Shown: piece by piece, positions 3,922 through 11,003 of the stretch
Layout of the letters: each line of letters begins with the position of its first letter
Numbering within the stretch: position 1 is the first letter of the stretch
Assembly (NCBI GenBank): GCA_003696125.1
Contig: RFHZ01000126.1
Location: forward strand, 1 to 11,451
DNA from: Nitrospinota bacterium
GTDB taxonomy: Bacteria; Tectomicrobia; Entotheonellia; J063
DNA length: 11,451 nt
Direction: 5' to 3'
Position numbers and translations under genes: made by a program
Notes under the pieces: generated by a model
Database searches by the model: none
What the model saw: the letters and a program-made list of their open reading frames with translations, nothing else
Told to the model about the DNA's origin: nothing

Positions 3922-4248
3922 TTACAACAGGGCAAAGTAGAGAAAGATCACCACCCCGAGTCCCAGCAGGATCAGCAGGAGGGGGCGATGAAAGGTGATG
4001 CCCCATCCGAGATCGTTGAGCATGGTCTTTATGCCGTTCATCCCGTGAAAGATCACCACCGCAAGGAGGGCGATACGCACCCCCTGCGAGTAAGGGTGGA
4101 GCCAGTGCCAGGGTAACAGTACCAGCAGCAGTACGGCGGCAAGGCGTTGTAACACCCAGGCCCACATGCCGGGATACATCTGTGCCCAATCCGCGTACCG
4201 GGTCCAGCGTCGTCTGTACTCCTCTACCTGACTGGCGTGCTTCTGCAT
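3922..4248 (-). CDS. Succinate dehydrogenase/fumarate reductase membrane-anchor-like protein (SdhC/SdhD type)
   Basis: 108 residues with three predicted membrane helices (about 29-49, 57-78 and 88-107), the usual size and topology of a heme- and quinone-binding anchor. Two family signatures are visible. Arg35 in the WVLQR segment of helix 1 corresponds to the quinone-site Arg region. FHGMNGIKTMLNDLG (67-81) matches the H-x-x-x-G-x-(R/K)...D signature in which the His (His68) ligates heme b. The gene follows the flavoprotein directly. The flavoprotein TGA and this ATG are in the same frame, separated only by two AGG codons, which also form the AGGAGG. Because that ribosome-binding site abuts the ATG, translation probably depends on termination-reinitiation. 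Only one anchor is present and no SdhB lies next to it, which is unusual. Assignment to C or D is not possible. Confidence 0.8.
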   Translation of the reverse strand: MQKHASQVEEYRRRWTRYADWAQMYPGMWAWVLQRLAAVLLLVLLPWHWLHPYSQGVRIALLAVVIFHGMNGIKTMLNDLGWGITFHRPLLLILLGLGVVIFLYFALL

Positions 4249-4254
4249 CCTCCT

Positions 4255-5985
4255 TCACTCCTTGTGAACCTGGAGATCCGGTGGGCTCAACCGGCTCAGG
4301 GCTACCGGTCTCCAGAAGACCCGCATCTCCCCCTCTGCTCCCCGCTGCAGGCAGACGTTCCGCAGATAGTGGTGGTTATCGGTCTCCGGGTAATCGAGAC
4401 GATAATGGGAACCGCGACTCTCTCTCCTGACCAGGGCACTCTGGGTGATCAGGGCAGAGACGGTCAGCAGGTTCTGCAGGTTCAGCAGATCCTGCCAGGC
4501 CAGGTTGAAGCGTCTGCCCCCGGAGAGGGCAACCCGTTGGCAATCCTCCTGTAGCTCCGCAATCCGCTGCAGGGCAGCCTGGAGCGCTTTTTCTTCCCGT
4601 ACCAGTCCCACCTTTTCCCACATCAACTCCCGCAACTCCTGCCGGAGCGCGTAGAGGTTGGGAGCCCCCTTTTCCGGCTGCTTAAAGGGACGCAGGGTCT
4701 CCGCTATCATGGCCTGGACCTGGGTCTCCTGGTAGGGATGATGGGGAGTGTCTGCCGCGTAGCGGGCCAGGGACTCTCCAGCAATTCCTCCAAAGACGGT
4801 GGAGCAGGCCACCCCGTTGCCCCCTAGACGATTGGCCCCGTGCACCCCTCCACTGTCTTCCCCGGCGACAAAGAGACCGGGCAGGGTAGAGCGACACTCG
4901 CCATCCATGCGGATTCCCCCCATCATGTAGTGCGCAGTAGGGGAAACCTCCACCGGTTCCTCGTCGAGTCGAAATCCCATATCCCGGCATCGCTCCACCA
5001 TGCCGGGGAAATGCTGGCGGACAAAGTCGGCTCCCAGGTGGGAGACATCGATATAGACCCCACCCCGCGGTGTGCCACGCCCCTCCTGGATCTCCAGATA
5101 GCTGCTACGCGCCACGATGTCTCTGGTCGAACGCTCCATCCGCTCCGGATCGTACCGGGCCATGAACCGCTCCATCTTCCCGTTGTACAGGTACCCCCCG
5201 GCACCACGCAACCCTTCCTCCAACACGGTGCCGGTCAGTTGGGAGTCGGCCGCCAGCAGGCCGGTGGGATGGAACTGCACCATCTCCATATCGATCAGTT
5301 CCGCGCCGGCCCGGTACCCGATCGCTATCCCGTCGGTCGATTTATCGGCCGAGGAGGCAAAGATCTTGTACATGGATGGGCCTCCCCCTGTAGCCAGGAG
5401 CACCGCCTTGGCCTGCACCACCAGGAAGCTCCCTTCCCGGATATCCAGGAGCAGGGCACCGACTACCCGCTCGTGGGTCGAATCGAGGAGAAGCTCCAGG
5501 GCACGATGCTCCTCCAGGATGGTGATCCCTCTCCGGTAGACCTGCTCGGCCAGGCGGTTGATGATCTCGATACCGGTCAGGTCCCCTCGATGCACGGTCC
5601 GGTCGAACGACTGGCCGGCAAAGGGCTTCTGGTGGATGGTACCATCCGGGTTCCGGTCAAAGAAACACCCGATCTTGTTTTCCAGCTCCCGCACCCGCTC
5701 CGGAGCGGTGGTGACCAGTAGCCAGGCCAGTTCCTGGTTGTTGAGAAACTGCCCCCCCTGCAGGGTATCGACGAAATGCTTCTCGAACGAATCCTCGGGG
5801 TGGAGGACCACGTTGTACCCCCCCTGCACCATGCGGGTACACCCCGATTTGCCGAAGAGCCCCTTTACGGCAAGGGTGATGCGGAGTGGAAGGCCACTGT
5901 CGTGGGCATGAATAGCCGCACACAGCCCTGCTCCTCCACTCCCCAGGATCAGGATATCGGTCTGCAAGGTTTCATACACATCCAT
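4255..5985 (-). CDS. Fumarate reductase/succinate dehydrogenase-type flavoprotein, divergent
   Basis: 576 residues; FAD-dependent oxidoreductase of the SdhA/FrdA/NadB superfamily, cytoplasmic (no signal peptide). Numbered from the ATG at 5985: FAD-binding GSGGAGLCAA (15-24), second FAD segment ending in QGG (54-56), LATGG (197-201), substrate motif FHPTG (238-242), LEEGLRGAGG (255-264), TRDIVAR (287-293), PTAHYMMGG (349-357) and HGANRLGGNG (382-391). The active-site His, the shuttle Arg (Arg288) and the Arg of HGANR are kept. Two key places differ. The His that binds FAD covalently in SdhA/FrdA (S-H-T...QGG) is Cys49 here. The Thr of the usual T-E-G-x-R is Glu256. Cofactor linkage and substrate may thus differ. 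The track-compatible GTG at 5991 has no usable ribosome-binding site; the ATG at 5985 follows a weak ACAGGTG. It lies 37 nt after the fumarase-beta-like gene. Confidence 0.9.
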   Translation of the reverse strand: MDVYETLQTDILILGSGGAGLCAAIHAHDSGLPLRITLAVKGLFGKSGCTRMVQGGYNVVLHPEDSFEKHFVDTLQGGQFLNNQELAWLLVTTAPERVRELENKIGCFFDRNPDGTIHQKPFAGQSFDRTVHRGDLTGIEIINRLAEQVYRRGITILEEHRALELLLDSTHERVVGALLLDIREGSFLVVQAKAVLLATGGGPSMYKIFASSADKSTDGIAIGYRAGAELIDMEMVQFHPTGLLAADSQLTGTVLEEGLRGAGGYLYNGKMERFMARYDPERMERSTRDIVARSSYLEIQEGRGTPRGGVYIDVSHLGADFVRQHFPGMVERCRDMGFRLDEEPVEVSPTAHYMMGGIRMDGECRSTLPGLFVAGEDSGGVHGANRLGGNGVACSTVFGGIAGESLARYAADTPHHPYQETQVQAMIAETLRPFKQPEKGAPNLYALRQELRELMWEKVGLVREEKALQAALQRIAELQEDCQRVALSGGRRFNLAWQDLLNLQNLLTVSALITQSALVRRESRGSHYRLDYPETDNHHYLRNVCLQRGAEGEMRVFWRPVALSRLSPPDLQVHKE

Positions 5986-6022
5986 AGGCACCTGTAAGCT
6001 CGCAACGACAGGAAAAAACCGG

Positions 6023-6712
6023 TTATAACACCTCCTCTTCCTCGGAATGGATCTCGCCCAGCCGCTTCAGGGAAGGGGGAGGGAAGCGGCGGTAGAGGGA
6101 AGAGAATTGGATGTTGAGCTCCCGTTGCGCCAGGGACTGCAGGCTGTTTCCCTGCGTATCGCATTCCACCAGGAGCGGACCCAGCCTTTCCACCTCGAGG
6201 ACCCACATGGCCTGCGCCAGGCCGAGTTCCTGACGCCAGAACACGTCCACGACCCGTTTGATGGCACGGCCGTACTTGGCTCCCAGGCCGTACCCGACCG
6301 TGGTCAGATAGACGGCACCATGTGTACGGAAGGCCTGCTGGTAGATCTCCTCCTGCATTCCCCCCTTGCCGATCACCGCCTTGACCCCGTACTGCGCCAG
6401 GAGTTGGGGAATCCATTTGGCAAAGCGGAAGCTGGCCGTTGCGGTCACCGCAGAGATGCGGTATTCCCCTGGCGCCACCTCCCCTACGGCAGGTGAACAG
6501 TGGAAGGTCACGTTGCAGGTGTTGCGGATGTCGATAGGGGGGACCTGCCCCTCATCCAGCACCCGTTTGTAAAATCCGACCCGACCGGTAAAGATCAGGC
6601 CGTCCAGGTAGACGATATCTCCCAGTTGAAGCTGCTGCAAATCGGCGTCCTGCAGGGGAATCTGCAGCCGGATTTCTCGCATGCCCAACTCGTCAGACGA
6701 TGATGCGACCAT
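6023..6712 (-). CDS. Fumarase/L(+)-tartrate dehydratase beta-subunit-like protein, orphan
   Basis: 229 residues, about the size of TtdB and of the C-terminal domain of class I fumarases. Matching segments: LGDIVYLDGLIFTGR (30-44), YGVKAVIGKGGM (108-119), HGAVYLTTVGYG (131-142) and LGPLLVECDTQGNSL (177-191, cf. the FGPLIVSIDTHGNNL-type block of TtdB). The normally conserved (T/C)ARDxAHKR motif reads TGRVGFYKR (42-50), losing the Asp and His. The TTSxRM motif reads TATASFRF (90-97), keeping Thr, Ser and Arg. No alpha subunit, which holds the 4Fe-4S cluster, is adjacent, so activity as a dehydratase is doubtful unless the alpha subunit is elsewhere. The frame is open further up to a TTG at 6766, but that codon overlaps the predicted promoter -10. 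I chose the ATG at 6712, which has GAGG 7 nt upstream. First gene of the flavoprotein operon. Confidence 0.82.
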   Translation of the reverse strand: MVASSSDELGMREIRLQIPLQDADLQQLQLGDIVYLDGLIFTGRVGFYKRVLDEGQVPPIDIRNTCNVTFHCSPAVGEVAPGEYRISAVTATASFRFAKWIPQLLAQYGVKAVIGKGGMQEEIYQQAFRTHGAVYLTTVGYGLGAKYGRAIKRVVDVFWRQELGLAQAMWVLEVERLGPLLVECDTQGNSLQSLAQRELNIQFSSLYRRFPPPSLKRLGEIHSEEEEVL

Positions 6713-6764
6713 AGCGATTCCTCGTGTTGTGAGTAACGATGACTCCCTCTGATCGGTTTCTCTC

Positions 6765-6793
6765 AATATACGTCATCCGGGAACGGTACTCAA
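6765..6793 (-). promoter_or_regulatory. Predicted sigma-70 promoter of the fumarase-beta-like/flavoprotein operon
   Basis: On the minus strand TTGAGT (6793-6788) and TATATT (6770-6765) are separated by exactly 17 nt, close to the sigma-70 consensus. The start of transcription would fall near 6757, giving a leader of about 45 nt before the ATG at 6712. This supports the downstream start over the TTG at 6766. It would let blocks 5 and 6 be expressed independently of the sigma-54 operon upstream. Confidence 0.6.
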
Positions 6794-6902: not shown

Positions 6903-7682
6903 CTACCCCGGATGGTGGACCGAAGAATCGGTTTCGGGAGACCCCGTTTCCAGGGGAGAGGAGAGAGAGCTTTGCTGCTCTTGCCGGAGCAGGCGTTCAT
7001 ATTCGAGCGGGTGCCACTCTTTCATCTCCTTACGTGAGATCCTCCCGGTGATCCACACCCAGCTCATCGGGAAGACGTCAGGGCGGAGGTGCACGTTATA
7101 GAAATGCCAGATAAAGATGGCCAGGGCCGCCAGAAGCGCTTCATCGCTATGCGCAACCTTGGCCATTCCCAAGACCCAGACCGGGAGATAGGTGACGGTC
7201 TGCACCGGGAACCAGAGGATCAGGCCTGAACCGGCCATGATGGCGATTCCCCAAAAGACGGCCCAGTAATCAAACTTCTCCCAGTACGTATAGCGATCGA
7301 ACCTGGGGCGTTCATCGGTAAACCCAAAGAAGAAGCGAAGCATGCCGTAGAGATCCTGCACATCCTTGCGGGTAGGGAGCATCTCCAGGGAGAGTTCGTT
7401 GCGCACAAGCCTGTACAGGAGATAGGCGAGATGATAGACGGCTGAGAAGATCATGACCACGGCGGCTCCTCGATGCACCCTTCCCGCCATCTCCAGCCCT
7501 CCCCAGAGGTACATGAACATGCGAGAAACCCCTACGGTGGCGTACTTGAGGGGGATGCCGGTCAAGACCAGGATGATGAAGCTACTGAACATGAGGATGT
7601 GTTGAATACGGTAATGGATTCCCATCCGTTCAAAGGAGCCGTTTTCTACAACCTCCTTGAGTTCGGCATTCGGTTCGGTCAT
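6903..7682 (-). CDS. Four-helix di-heme cytochrome b (formate dehydrogenase gamma/cytochrome b561-like)
   Basis: 259 residues. Predicted membrane helices lie at about 27-46, 72-92, 138-158 and 182-199. Histidines at helix ends or inside helices (His28, His70, His84, His178, His193, His198) offer enough ligands for two b hemes, as in the FdnI/HydC-type quinone-reactive subunits. Family-like segments are HYRIQHILMFSSFIILVLTGIPLKY at the N-terminus, GRVHRGAA (68-74), GSGLILWFP (151-159) and FIWHFYNVHLRPDVFPM (190-206). The start ATG overlaps the stop of the multiheme cytochrome gene (ATGA), so the two are translationally coupled and likely form one membrane complex that exchanges electrons between quinones and periplasmic hemes. 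The C-terminal tail (about 235-259) is low-complexity, rich in Ser, Pro and Glu, and probably disordered in the cytoplasm. No molybdopterin or other catalytic subunit is adjacent. Confidence 0.87.
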   Translation of the reverse strand: MTEPNAELKEVVENGSFERMGIHYRIQHILMFSSFIILVLTGIPLKYATVGVSRMFMYLWGGLEMAGRVHRGAAVVMIFSAVYHLAYLLYRLVRNELSLEMLPTRKDVQDLYGMLRFFFGFTDERPRFDRYTYWEKFDYWAVFWGIAIMAGSGLILWFPVQTVTYLPVWVLGMAKVAHSDEALLAALAIFIWHFYNVHLRPDVFPMSWVWITGRISRKEMKEWHPLEYERLLRQEQQSSLSSPLETGSPETDSSVHHPG

Positions 7683-8632
7683 GGTCGATTCCTCCGACGA
7701 CGGGTAATATAGACACGAAGGGAAGCCAGCAGGTCAAGGACCACGTGTAATGAGAGGGCAATAATAACCGTGCTGGTCAGGCCGCTAAAGAAGAGTTCTG
7801 TGTAGTGCACGATCTGCTGAGATTCCTCGGTCATCGGGATATGGGCAAAGGCAGAAGCAAAGCGAGCCGTTGCTCCCTGGTGGCACTGACCACAGGTATC
7901 GGCAAGTCCTGCCGTGAATTGGGATGAAGTGGGGTCACGAATGGCGTGAGCACCATGGCAGCTCGTGCAGACCGCGACCCGTGAGCTGCCCAGGATCAGT
8001 TTCCGTCCATGAAAGCTCTCCCGGTAGGTAGGCACCACATTGATGTTGAGCTTGTATTTGACGATGATCTCCGAATCGCCATGGCAGCGGGCACAGGTAA
8101 GCGGAATGCTGGTATAGTACACCCGGGAGAGCGGATCGGTTTGCGGCCTGATGTCATGCGGTGAGCCGTGGCAGTCCATGCAGTACGGGGCATCGGTTAT
8201 CTTCTCCCCGAACAGGGCCTGCCCATGGACCCCCTGCCGCACCTGTTCGAAGGTCTCATAGTGACAGGTCACACATCCTGCTGCGGCCACCGGATCATGA
8301 GGAGCCTTGGAAGCCAGTCGCTCTGCAATTGTTCGCAGGCTCTCCTCCACCTGGGTCTTCTCCTGCGCATGGGGGACCTGGGAGAAGCCGAGATGGCAGT
8401 CCTCACACTCCAGCACACCGTGTACAGAGTTCTGGAAACTCCGCAGGTTTATCACGGCCGGCCATTCCGCCTTTTCCCCTTCCGGCCTTTCATGGCAGCC
8501 GAGACAGAGTTCTGAAGCCCCACCTGACGCCGTGAAGGAGAAAAGCAGGAATAGGCCGAAGAGCACGGCTCCACCCACCAGTTTAGGGATACAGAAGCAG
8601 AAAGGCATCCTTCTCCTCCTCTCCCCCTTCAT
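7679..8632 (-). CDS. Seven-heme membrane-anchored cytochrome c
   Basis: 317 residues with seven CxxCH heme-attachment motifs (residues 43-47, 76-80, 120-124, 151-155, 180-184, 222-226 and 247-251): CLGCH, CEDCH, CVTCH, CMDCH, CARCH, CTSCH and CGQCH. Further His residues between them (for example in SVHG, GVHG, SFHG, GAHA) can serve as distal ligands. The N-terminus is a signal peptide or anchor (hydrophobic about 18-36). A second hydrophobic helix (about 283-304) followed by RRRRNRP fixes the C-terminus in the inner membrane, leaving the hemes in the periplasm. It should pass electrons to or from the coupled cytochrome b. Start: the ATG at 8632 overlaps the upstream stop (ATGA). An in-frame ATG at 8608 has an AGGAGG with 6-nt spacing and may be the true start, giving 309 residues. 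It resembles multiheme proteins of NrfB/c3-like architecture, but no specific family name is secure. Confidence 0.93.
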   Translation of the reverse strand: MKGERRRRMPFCFCIPKLVGGAVLFGLFLLFSFTASGGASELCLGCHERPEGEKAEWPAVINLRSFQNSVHGVLECEDCHLGFSQVPHAQEKTQVEESLRTIAERLASKAPHDPVAAAGCVTCHYETFEQVRQGVHGQALFGEKITDAPYCMDCHGSPHDIRPQTDPLSRVYYTSIPLTCARCHGDSEIIVKYKLNINVVPTYRESFHGRKLILGSSRVAVCTSCHGAHAIRDPTSSQFTAGLADTCGQCHQGATARFASAFAHIPMTEESQQIVHYTELFFSGLTSTVIIALSLHVVLDLLASLRVYITRRRRNRP

Positions 8633-9312
8633 GATTCCGCTCTCCTCTCATTATTCACCGGGACAGGGATGTGAAACAGGGAGAGCACCACGCTAATCGC
8701 ATATCCGAGCAGCGTACCGATGACCGCTCCCATCACCAGGCATACGGTTCCGGCACTGAGCACCCCAAAGAGCATTCCCAGCAAGACCATTCCCCGGGCC
8801 AGCAGGGTATGAGGAACCGGGGCACCATAGAAGCTCGCTGCCAGGATCAGCCCTCCTTCTCCCCCGTAGACCAGGCCGATCCAGAATCCCACGCTGAGGA
8901 AGAGGGCACCTCCCACCCAGGCTCCGGCAATGCGTCCTCTACGGGCATAGCGATTCTCCTCGCTCAAGGGAGGGATACGAATCGGTTGCCGTACCTTCTC
9001 CTTCTGGGGCCGGGCCTCTTGCAGGGCCAGCGCGAACAGGTATCCCACCCCTGCTCCCAGTGCGGCTCCGGCACCGATGAACAGGGCGGCACTGGTGACC
9101 ACACCCAGGGTGATGCCGAGGAAGGTCAGGCCACGTGCCCAGATACTGGGAGGGATAGGGGTACCAAAAAGCGCCTTAGCCACCACCAGTCCCAGATAGC
9201 CTCCATAGACCACCCCATAGAGCAGGCCGATGTAAACAAACCCGATACCACCTATGATTGTCCCCACTTCCCGCCCAATAGTTACCGGACTCTTTCTCCT
9301 CTTTCTTTCCAT
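8629..9312 (-). CDS. Membrane protein with two tandem copies of a glycine-rich domain, function unknown
   Basis: 227 residues; I do not recognise the family. Two halves (about 14-97 and 127-210) align without gaps at an offset of 113 residues. Shared positions include YGG..GL..A (36-45 and 149-158), the FGTPIP/YGAPVP segment (49-54 and 162-167), ARG...LG...GV (59-71 and 172-184) and GA..G...GY (82-91 and 195-204). Each half has about two to three glycine-rich hydrophobic segments; a basic, hydrophilic linker (100-126) joins them. The N-terminus is strongly basic (MERKRRK). The ATG at 9312 follows AGGAGG by 8 nt. It is the first gene downstream of the sigma-54 promoter and is coupled by ATGA to the cytochrome c gene, so it may be an assembly factor, channel or extra subunit of the cytochrome complex. 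That role is inferred only from position. Confidence 0.8.
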   Translation of the reverse strand: MERKRRKSPVTIGREVGTIIGGIGFVYIGLLYGVVYGGYLGLVVAKALFGTPIPPSIWARGLTFLGITLGVVTSAALFIGAGAALGAGVGYLFALALQEARPQKEKVRQPIRIPPLSEENRYARRGRIAGAWVGGALFLSVGFWIGLVYGGEGGLILAASFYGAPVPHTLLARGMVLLGMLFGVLSAGTVCLVMGAVIGTLLGYAISVVLSLFHIPVPVNNERRAES

Positions 9313-9383: not shown

Positions 9384-9399
9384 AGCAACTTCTGTGCCA
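9384..9399 (-). promoter_or_regulatory. Sigma-54 (RpoN) promoter of the cytochrome operon
   Basis: The minus strand reads TGGCAC-AGAAG-TTGCT, matching the sigma-54 consensus TGGCAC-N5-TTGCW at every defined base. The invariant GG (9398-9397) and GC (9386-9385) are 10 nt apart, as required for -24/-12 promoters. Transcription would start about 12 nt downstream, leaving a leader of about 60 nt to the ATG at 9312. The gene just upstream encodes a sigma-54-dependent activator, which makes a functional link likely. Confidence 0.85.
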
Positions 9400-9492
9400 G
9401 GCAAGAGGAGAAGATCCCGGCAGCAGGGAACCCTTACGGATGGCTACTTTTCCCTTTGTCCTTTCTCCGCCCCACCCTCCCCTCTATCCCAT

Positions 9493-9512
9493 CTGTAGGA
9501 AAAGCCCTACAG
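9493..9512. promoter_or_regulatory. Candidate activator-binding palindrome (UAS) for the NtrC-type regulator
   Basis: Perfect inverted repeat CTGTAGG-N6-CCTACAG centred at about 9502, roughly 105 bp upstream of the -24 element and 130 bp upstream of the expected start. Enhancer sites for sigma-54 activators are typically palindromes of this size at such a distance. Only one copy with these arms is visible. Binding by the adjacent regulator is inferred. Confidence 0.5.
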
Positions 9513-9590: not shown

Positions 9591-11003
9591 CTACCCCTCC
9601 TCTTCTCCCATCATATCTGGGTTTCTATACTCTGCTTCAGAAATCCCATAAAGCCGCATCTTCTGATAGAAGTGGGTGCGATGGATTCCGGCTGCTTCCG
9701 CTGCAGCCGTCACATTGCCCCGGTGCCTGCGCAGCATGGTGATGAGGTAGTCACGCTCAAAGCGCTGCCTGGCTTCGCGGAAGCTCAGCGGCTCGGCTTT
9801 GAAGAGGCTCTTTTCAGCGGTCTGGAGCACTTCCGCCGGGAGTGTATGCGCCTCGACCAGCTCTCCCCGGGTCATGATCACCGCCCGTTCAACCGCCTTC
9901 TCTAACTGGCGTACATTCCCTGGCCAGGGATAGTTCAGCAGTATCTCGAGTGTTTCCGGGGTAAAGCCATGAATCTCCTTACCCGCCTTGGTCGCGTACT
10001 GCCGCAAGAAATGCGCGGCCAGCAGGGGAATATCCTCTCTCCGCTCCCGGAGAGGGGGGAGTTCGATGGTAAACGTGTTCAAGCGATAGAAGAGGTCTTC
10101 CCGGAACTTCCCCTCGGCCATTAATGCCTTCAGGGGCCTGTTTGTGGAGGAAATAACCCGCACATCCACCTGCATGAGGGTACGCCCCCCTAAGCGGAGA
10201 AATTCACCAGACTCCAGCGCTCGTAAGACTTTGCTCTGCAGGGGAAGCGGCATATCACCGATCTCATCCAGAAACAGGGTCCCCCCATCTGCCACCTCGA
10301 GCAAGCCCTTCTTGGTGCTCGACGCCCCGGTAAAGGCTCCCTTTTCGTAGCCAAACAACTCGCTCTCCAGCAGGGTTTCTGGAAAGGCGGCACAGTTGAT
10401 GGAGAGGAATACCTTCTCCTTGCGCAGGCTATGCGCATAGATCGCCTTGGCCACCAGTTCTTTACCGGTGCCGCTCTCCCCCAGGATGAGTACCGTAGCG
10501 TCTGTAGGCGCCACCGTCAGGATGAGGCGAAAGAGCTGCTGCATGGCCGGGCTCTTTCCGATCAAGGCTCCCAGGCTATACTTTTCCTGCAGCTCTCGAT
10601 GTAAGAGGCGGTTCTCCAGTAACAGACGCCGGCGTTCCAGGGCCTTCTCGATGACGAGTTCCATCTCTTCTGCCTGCACCGGTTTGGTGATGTAATCGTA
10701 CGCCCCTTTCTTCATGGCTTCCACCGCATTTTCCACCGTGCCGTAGGCGGTAAGGACTATCACCGGCAGGTCCGGATCGAGCTCTTTGACACGACGCAGC
10801 ACCTCCATGCCATCGATGCCGGGCATCTTGAGGTCTGTGATGACGAGATCAGCCGGTGTCCGTTGCAGGTCCTCCAGGGCAGCCAGGCCCCGCTCAAAGG
10901 TCTGCAAATCGTACCTCTTGCCCAGCAAGCGCTGAAAGAGGCGGCGGATGCCTTCCTCGTCATCGATAACCACAACACGAGGCTTCAAACCTGGTCTTTC
11001 CAT
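9591..11003 (-). CDS. NtrC/AtoC-family sigma-54-dependent response regulator
   Basis: 470 residues with the full three-domain plan. The receiver domain (about 9-120) has the acidic pair Asp14/Asp15, phospho-acceptor Asp57 (VITDLKMP), Thr85 and Lys107. The AAA+ domain (about 143-375) has Walker A GESGTGKE (175-182), the sigma-54 contact loop GAFTGA (222-227), Walker B TLFLDE (242-247) and the arginine-finger region FREDLFYRL (300-308). A Fis-type helix-turn-helix follows (GNVTAAAEAAGIHRTHFYQK, 429-448). All catalytic elements are intact, so it should be a working ATP-driven activator of RNA polymerase-sigma-54. The start ATG at 11003 follows AAGGA by 6 nt and overlaps the kinase gene by 19 nt. 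The next operon carries a consensus sigma-54 promoter, making it the obvious target. AtoC, of similar architecture, controls a CoA-transferase operon in E. coli; that parallel is suggestive only. Confidence 0.96.
   Translation of the reverse strand: MERPGLKPRVVVIDDEEGIRRLFQRLLGKRYDLQTFERGLAALEDLQRTPADLVITDLKMPGIDGMEVLRRVKELDPDLPVIVLTAYGTVENAVEAMKKGAYDYITKPVQAEEMELVIEKALERRRLLLENRLLHRELQEKYSLGALIGKSPAMQQLFRLILTVAPTDATVLILGESGTGKELVAKAIYAHSLRKEKVFLSINCAAFPETLLESELFGYEKGAFTGASSTKKGLLEVADGGTLFLDEIGDMPLPLQSKVLRALESGEFLRLGGRTLMQVDVRVISSTNRPLKALMAEGKFREDLFYRLNTFTIELPPLRERREDIPLLAAHFLRQYATKAGKEIHGFTPETLEILLNYPWPGNVRQLEKAVERAVIMTRGELVEAHTLPAEVLQTAEKSLFKAEPLSFREARQRFERDYLITMLRRHRGNVTAAAEAAGIHRTHFYQKMRLYGISEAEYRNPDMMGEEEG

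Follow-up and report, generated by a model that had tools for sequence, protein, structure and literature searches.

Gene organization of the locus

The minus strand of the window (the whole stretch of DNA analysed, 11,451 nt) carries, in this order, the C-terminus of a sensor kinase, a response regulator gene, a 278-bp gap, and genes for a repeat membrane protein, a cytochrome c, and a cytochrome b (Table 1). An earlier note, made from the DNA letters, had placed tandem-repeat membrane protein, cytochrome c, and cytochrome b genes next to an intact activator gene containing a GAFTGA motif, and all of these elements were present.

Table 1. Features of the kinase-regulator and cytochrome gene region of the window
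Feature	Position	Strand	Basis
Sensor histidine kinase, C-terminal part (cut by contig end)	10985..11449	-	HATPase_c
NtrC-family response regulator	9591..11003	-	Pfam/NCBIfam matches, HTH alignment, tree
Putative enhancer (UAS), palindrome CTGTAGG-N6-CCTACAG	9493..9512		Exact repeat and conserved motif
Predicted sigma-54 -24/-12 promoter element TGGCACAGAAGTTGCT	9384..9399	-	Exact consensus match
Repeat membrane protein, first operon gene, 227 aa	8629..9312	-	Two glycine-rich repeats, modelled as helical hairpins
Seven-heme cytochrome c	7679..8632	-	Pfam multiheme c matches, 7 CXXCH
Membrane cytochrome b, formate-dehydrogenase-gamma/cytochrome b561 like	6903..7682	-	Pfam/NCBIfam

The regulator consists of a receiver domain, a sigma-54 AAA+ domain with GAFTGA, and a Fis-type HTH whose recognition region reads GIHRTHFYQKM. 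Its bit scores fell short of the NCBIfam equivalog cut-offs for AtoC (468.6 against 714), NtrC (452.6 against 558.6), and ZraR (405.8 against 760). The adjoining kinase gene, truncated in the window, is complete at a syntenic locus from Tectomicrobia, where the full-length protein of 639 aa has the architecture sCache_3_2-HAMP-PAS-HisKA-HATPase and is 56% identical to the window kinase over the shared part. Since the Tectomicrobia kinase has a Cache-like periplasmic domain, which scored weakly, together with HAMP and PAS domains, the signal of the kinase may be periplasmic.

The repeat membrane protein had no Pfam or NCBIfam match. Its AlphaFold2 model (mean pLDDT 81.8, pTM 0.58) contained four long helices, two per repeat, and a Foldseek search of this model against the PDB gave no match with E < 1. 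No related locus was found when the repeat protein alone was used as the query; its relatives are one- or two-repeat proteins encoded next to the same cytochromes. The window protein looks like a fused double copy: two adjacent one-repeat genes occur at L128:6306-7047 and L161:6059-6834, and a single one-repeat gene lies beside the cytochrome bc genes at Myxococcota loci. Judged from these sequences, the repeat proteins are a widespread, undescribed family encoded beside cytochrome bc genes. The cytochrome c ends in a C-terminal hydrophobic helix. Among solved chains, the cytochrome b is closest in sequence to FdnI, the formate dehydrogenase N gamma subunit (1kqf_C), and the protein is a probable quinol-oxidising or quinone-reducing partner.

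Promoter element and palindrome in the intergenic gap

The 278-bp gap contains TGGCACAGAAGTTGCT, which corresponds to TGGCAC-N5-TTGCT and is the sole exact -24/-12 copy in the window. It fits TGGCAC-N5-TTGCW with GG and GC 10 bp apart (9399-9384), and its last base lies 72 nt away from the first base of the start codon (ATG at 9312), exactly as claimed previously. First-order Markov sequence with the composition of the window would contain about 0.008 exact copies per window and 0.0002 per 278-bp gap. A profile search detected rpoN in the window's genome (PF04552, E = 1.4e-64, G000:C633), as the promoter assignment in the earlier note had required. Beside the clear rpoN, the sigma-54 DNA-binding domain was matched weakly at a second place (L002, G000:C964:5987-6253, 24.9 bits).

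The palindrome CTGTAGG-aaaagc-CCTACAG is an exact 7-6-7 repeat, as had been described. Measured upstream from the -24/-12 element, its near edge lies at 94 bp and its centre at approximately 111 bp; the former estimate of about 105 bp was a fair approximation. An unspecified inverted repeat with 7-bp arms is not significant in this gap (simulated P = 0.22), which also holds a second inverted repeat of the 7-12-7 form. Since the palindrome alone says little, its weight rests on its conservation.

Conservation at a syntenic locus and across phyla

The contig JACPSX010000058.1 of a Candidatus Tectomicrobia MAG, which a genome search placed in a different phylum from the window's genome, has the same order of kinase, regulator, repeat protein, cytochrome c, and cytochrome b (L079/L086). 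The identities to the window are 64% for the regulator, 44-47% for the repeat protein, approximately 54% for the cytochrome c, and 63-64% for the cytochrome b. Its gap contains TGTAGG-aaattc-CCTACT (TGTAGGaaattcCCTACT), with the half-sites and 6-bp spacer found in the window, and, at the equivalent place, TGGCACGACCCTTGTT, which departs from the -24/-12 consensus at one base, its -12 element reading TTGTT instead of TTGCT. The second cytochrome pair of this locus lacks a motif site. Both the -24/-12 element and the palindrome recur at orthologous loci, a conservation on which the earlier note had staked its reading.

Because this locus was the only close relative, deep footprinting leans on more distant Myxococcota loci, the regulators of which are 44-48% identical. 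Among the best 80 loci with a related cytochrome b, retrieved by cytochrome b alignment, 32 contained an NtrC-type regulator with 40% identity or more. Alignment of the regulators and their tree defined three HTH classes: G[ILV]HR/K[ST] in the window, Tectomicrobia, and Myxococcota; IDLATLYRK in Nitrospirota; and RIPRPNFYEK in Nitrospirota and one unclassified bacterium. At Myxococcota loci with related regulators, TGTCGG-N6-CCGACA precedes the -24/-12 elements of repeat-protein and cytochrome bc genes. The motif TGT[AC]GG-N6-CC[GT]ACA, with at most one mismatch, was present in 14 of the 20 G[ILV]HR/K-class loci and in none of the 13 loci with another HTH (Fisher P = 5e-5); the Myxococcota loci are akin to one another, and these motif counts are not all independent. 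At up to one mismatch, the 20 class loci contained 28 sites with a spacer of 6, and any other spacer length between 2 and 12 gave zero to three; a -24/-12-like site followed 30-350 bp downstream of the spacer-6 motif in nine of the 20 loci, compared with at most one for other spacers.

The motif sites are frequently paired, 24-25 bp apart; the window has a single site, and relatives often have two. At L106, L110, and L121 (Myxococcota), motif and -24/-12 element stand both before a one-repeat gene and before a fused cytochrome c-b gene, and Anaeromyxobacter-type loci show the motif with one mismatch only, together with weaker -24/-12 matches. Seven Myxococcota genomes contained 13 exact TGTCGG-N6-CCGACA sites. 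Six were followed by a -24/-12-like element, and all six stand in front of either a repeat-protein gene or a cytochrome c-b gene, including a repeat-protein gene at L187, outside the best 80 loci; the other seven had neither such an element nor such a gene.

The Nitrospirota loci with other HTH types were without the motif. One of them, L128 (IDLATLYRK), has a perfect TTTTGCA-N4-TGCAAAA palindrome (L128:6173-6190); approximately 63 bp further on comes a -24/-12-like element, followed by the repeat-protein genes of the locus. This alternative palindrome occurred at L128 alone among the other-HTH Nitrospirota loci, and a different regulator class is possibly wired to the same genes there.

Sites elsewhere in the genome

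The window's own genome, a MAG with an estimated contamination of 8%, contained 11 motif sites with at most one mismatch. Two of these, among the eight whose flanks were checked, had a -24/-12-like element on the same strand at enhancer distance, and each of the two lies ahead of one of the two cytochrome c-b operons identified. The earlier note had suggested searching the genome for more such palindromes in front of -24/-12 promoters, and exactly one more was found, on contig C574, where TGTAGCTGTTTTCCTACA (one mismatch) is followed by TGGTATGGAAGTTGCT, a TGGTAT-N5-TTGCT element, before a second pair encoding a 9-heme cytochrome c and a cytochrome b. The distance from site start to -24 element was 112 and 123 bp in the two operons, and the probability of one of ten random sites falling within 350 bp of the C574 operon was 0.0008. 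Genome-wide, the motif showed no excess over a reversed control, and its weight therefore comes from position. A search of the same genome with CTGTAGG-N6-CCTACAG at three mismatches gave only noise, with fewer sites than the reversed control. None of the genome's 13 remaining exact -24/-12 sites had the motif upstream at up to two mismatches. One of these regions, L020 (G000:C188:7831-7846), repeats the 16-mer TGGCACAGAAGTTGCT, spacer included, before a gene for a 396-aa exported, beta-propeller-looking protein, and has no palindrome upstream.

Alternative explanations

The palindrome lies approximately 79 bp past the regulator stop codon on the transcribed strand, and of two weak hairpins that a terminator scan placed in the gap, one overlaps it; the palindrome might accordingly act at the RNA level, as a hairpin or terminator on the kinase-regulator transcript, and bind no protein as DNA. 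However, it has no T run on either side, the T-rich tail of the overlapping hairpin is one half of the palindrome itself, and the RNA folding of the palindrome is unremarkable (z = -1.2). Both the sequence of the motif and its 6-bp spacer are retained, with symmetric variation (TAG/CTA to TCG/CGA), and the motif also stands upstream of operons that no regulator gene precedes (L081 and Myxococcota loci). We rejected this reading, which we regard as very unlikely. Chance look-alikes of both elements without function are more improbable still: an inverted repeat with 7-bp arms is expected in such a gap with P = 0.22, but the expectation for the exact promoter there is approximately 2e-4, sequence and spacing are conserved at orthologous positions, and a second motif copy lies ahead of the paralogous operon, the last two findings already speaking against chance.

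It is also conceivable that the -24/-12 element is genuine but served by another NtrC-family activator, with the adjacent pair regulating something else. Organisms that use sigma-54 commonly have many activators, and the 16-mer at L020 precedes an unrelated gene; however, that promoter lacks the palindrome, the palindrome follows the HTH class of the regulator from locus to locus, and the adjacency of regulator and operon is kept across phyla. On balance, we consider control by another activator improbable.

Proposed regulatory switch

What the sequences show directly is which parts are present, the order in which they lie, and that promoter and operator are conserved along with the HTH class of the regulator. 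The palindrome is a probable binding site of the adjacent NtrC-family regulator, and the site is very probably a genuine genetic switch in which a sensor-regulator pair, a docking site, and a promoter serve the cytochrome operon. A classical NtrC-type two-component, sigma-54-dependent switch driving the operon is, in our judgement, highly likely. Counting against it are the deviating elements of the Tectomicrobia and C574 promoters, the poorer matches at Anaeromyxobacter-type loci, the distance of the Myxococcota relatives, the single site in the window, the missing genome-wide excess of the motif, and the contamination estimate of the MAG. We infer, with strong support from sequence, that the adjacent two-component system activates the operon directly, as had been proposed.

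Judged from domains and families, the sensor kinase would phosphorylate the regulator in response to a signal; the Fis-type HTH would then bind TGTAGG-N6-CCTACA, a step for which the footprinting support is strong; and the bound regulator, by analogy with its family, would loop to the -24/-12 promoter, where RNA polymerase-sigma-54 would open the DNA in an ATP-dependent manner. The operon would thereby be switched on, and its products, the repeat membrane protein, 7-heme cytochrome c, and cytochrome b, probably make up or assist a quinol/cytochrome c oxidoreductase of the inner membrane. Activation of the genome's second cytochrome c-b operon is probably also due to this regulator. The regulon appears to be narrow, and the operator, conserved across phyla, is apparently undescribed.

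Only tentatively would we extend this to a cross-phylum module of regulator, operator, repeat protein, and cytochrome bc, in which the half-sites (TGTAGG versus TGTCGG) changed along with the recognition helix (HRTHFYQK versus HRSTLYEK) and the undescribed hairpin-repeat protein is a dedicated partner of a cytochrome b-c oxidoreductase responding to limits on respiration (redox or acceptor).

Mechanistically, this is sigma-54 activation of the textbook kind. The locus offers an uncultured lineage's regulatory circuit for a respiratory membrane complex in a concrete form that can be tested, an operator usable for finding regulons in cultured relatives such as Anaeromyxobacter, and an uncharacterised membrane protein family tied to cytochrome b-c electron transfer in Tectomicrobia, Myxococcota, and Nitrospirota.

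Comparison with known systems

The switch resembles NtrC/AtoC/ZraR-type systems in its receiver, GAFTGA AAA+, and Fis-type HTH domains, its palindromic enhancer upstream of a -24/-12 promoter, and its adjacent kinase gene, but differs from them in its operator, TGT[AC]GG-N6-CC[GT]ACA, and in its targets, which are cytochrome b-c operons. With a multiheme periplasmic cytochrome c and a membrane cytochrome b in one operon, the locus resembles the CbcBA type in its layout. CbcBA of Geobacter sulfurreducens is an inner-membrane bc-type cytochrome that is induced when better acceptors are lacking and works near -0.2 V (PMC12307469, PMC10553843). The two are alike by description, each placing a membrane cytochrome b and a multiheme cytochrome c between the quinone pool and the periplasm, and no Geobacter sequence occurred among the best 80 cytochrome b loci. 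By this analogy, a redox or acceptor signal is plausible for the window's kinase. BccR, reportedly described by Joshi, Chan and Bond in 2021, is said to be the sigma-54 regulator of cbcBA in G. sulfurreducens; the likeness in sigma-54 control is again one of description and not of sequence. To our knowledge, neither the repeat membrane protein nor the operator is known from Geobacter.

The RpoN regulon of Geobacter, which includes cytochromes of extracellular electron transfer, has the promoter consensus TTGGCACGGTTTTTGCT (PMC2725144). This consensus fits the window's element but is a general one, without a tie to the window's operator. In Desulfovibrio, the gene for the sigma-54 enhancer-binding protein DVU3142 adjoins the genes for a multiheme cytochrome c/cytochrome b membrane complex, OhcBAC, with predicted sites upstream (PMC4641369). 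The likeness lies in this adjacency; unlike the window's operon, Ohc has an octaheme cytochrome c and an iron-sulfur protein, and its regulator is divergently transcribed.

Other observations

Downstream of the operon (window 3922-6766) are genes for a fumarase C-terminal/beta-type protein, an SdhA/FrdA/TfrA-like flavoprotein, and a short SdhC-like anchor; neither an iron-sulfur subunit nor a fumarase alpha part was seen within the window. Elsewhere in the genome, two Hsp20-like genes and one GroES-like gene have exact -24/-12 elements in front of them (L025, L028, and L021), which suggests that sigma-54 controls chaperones in the window's lineage.
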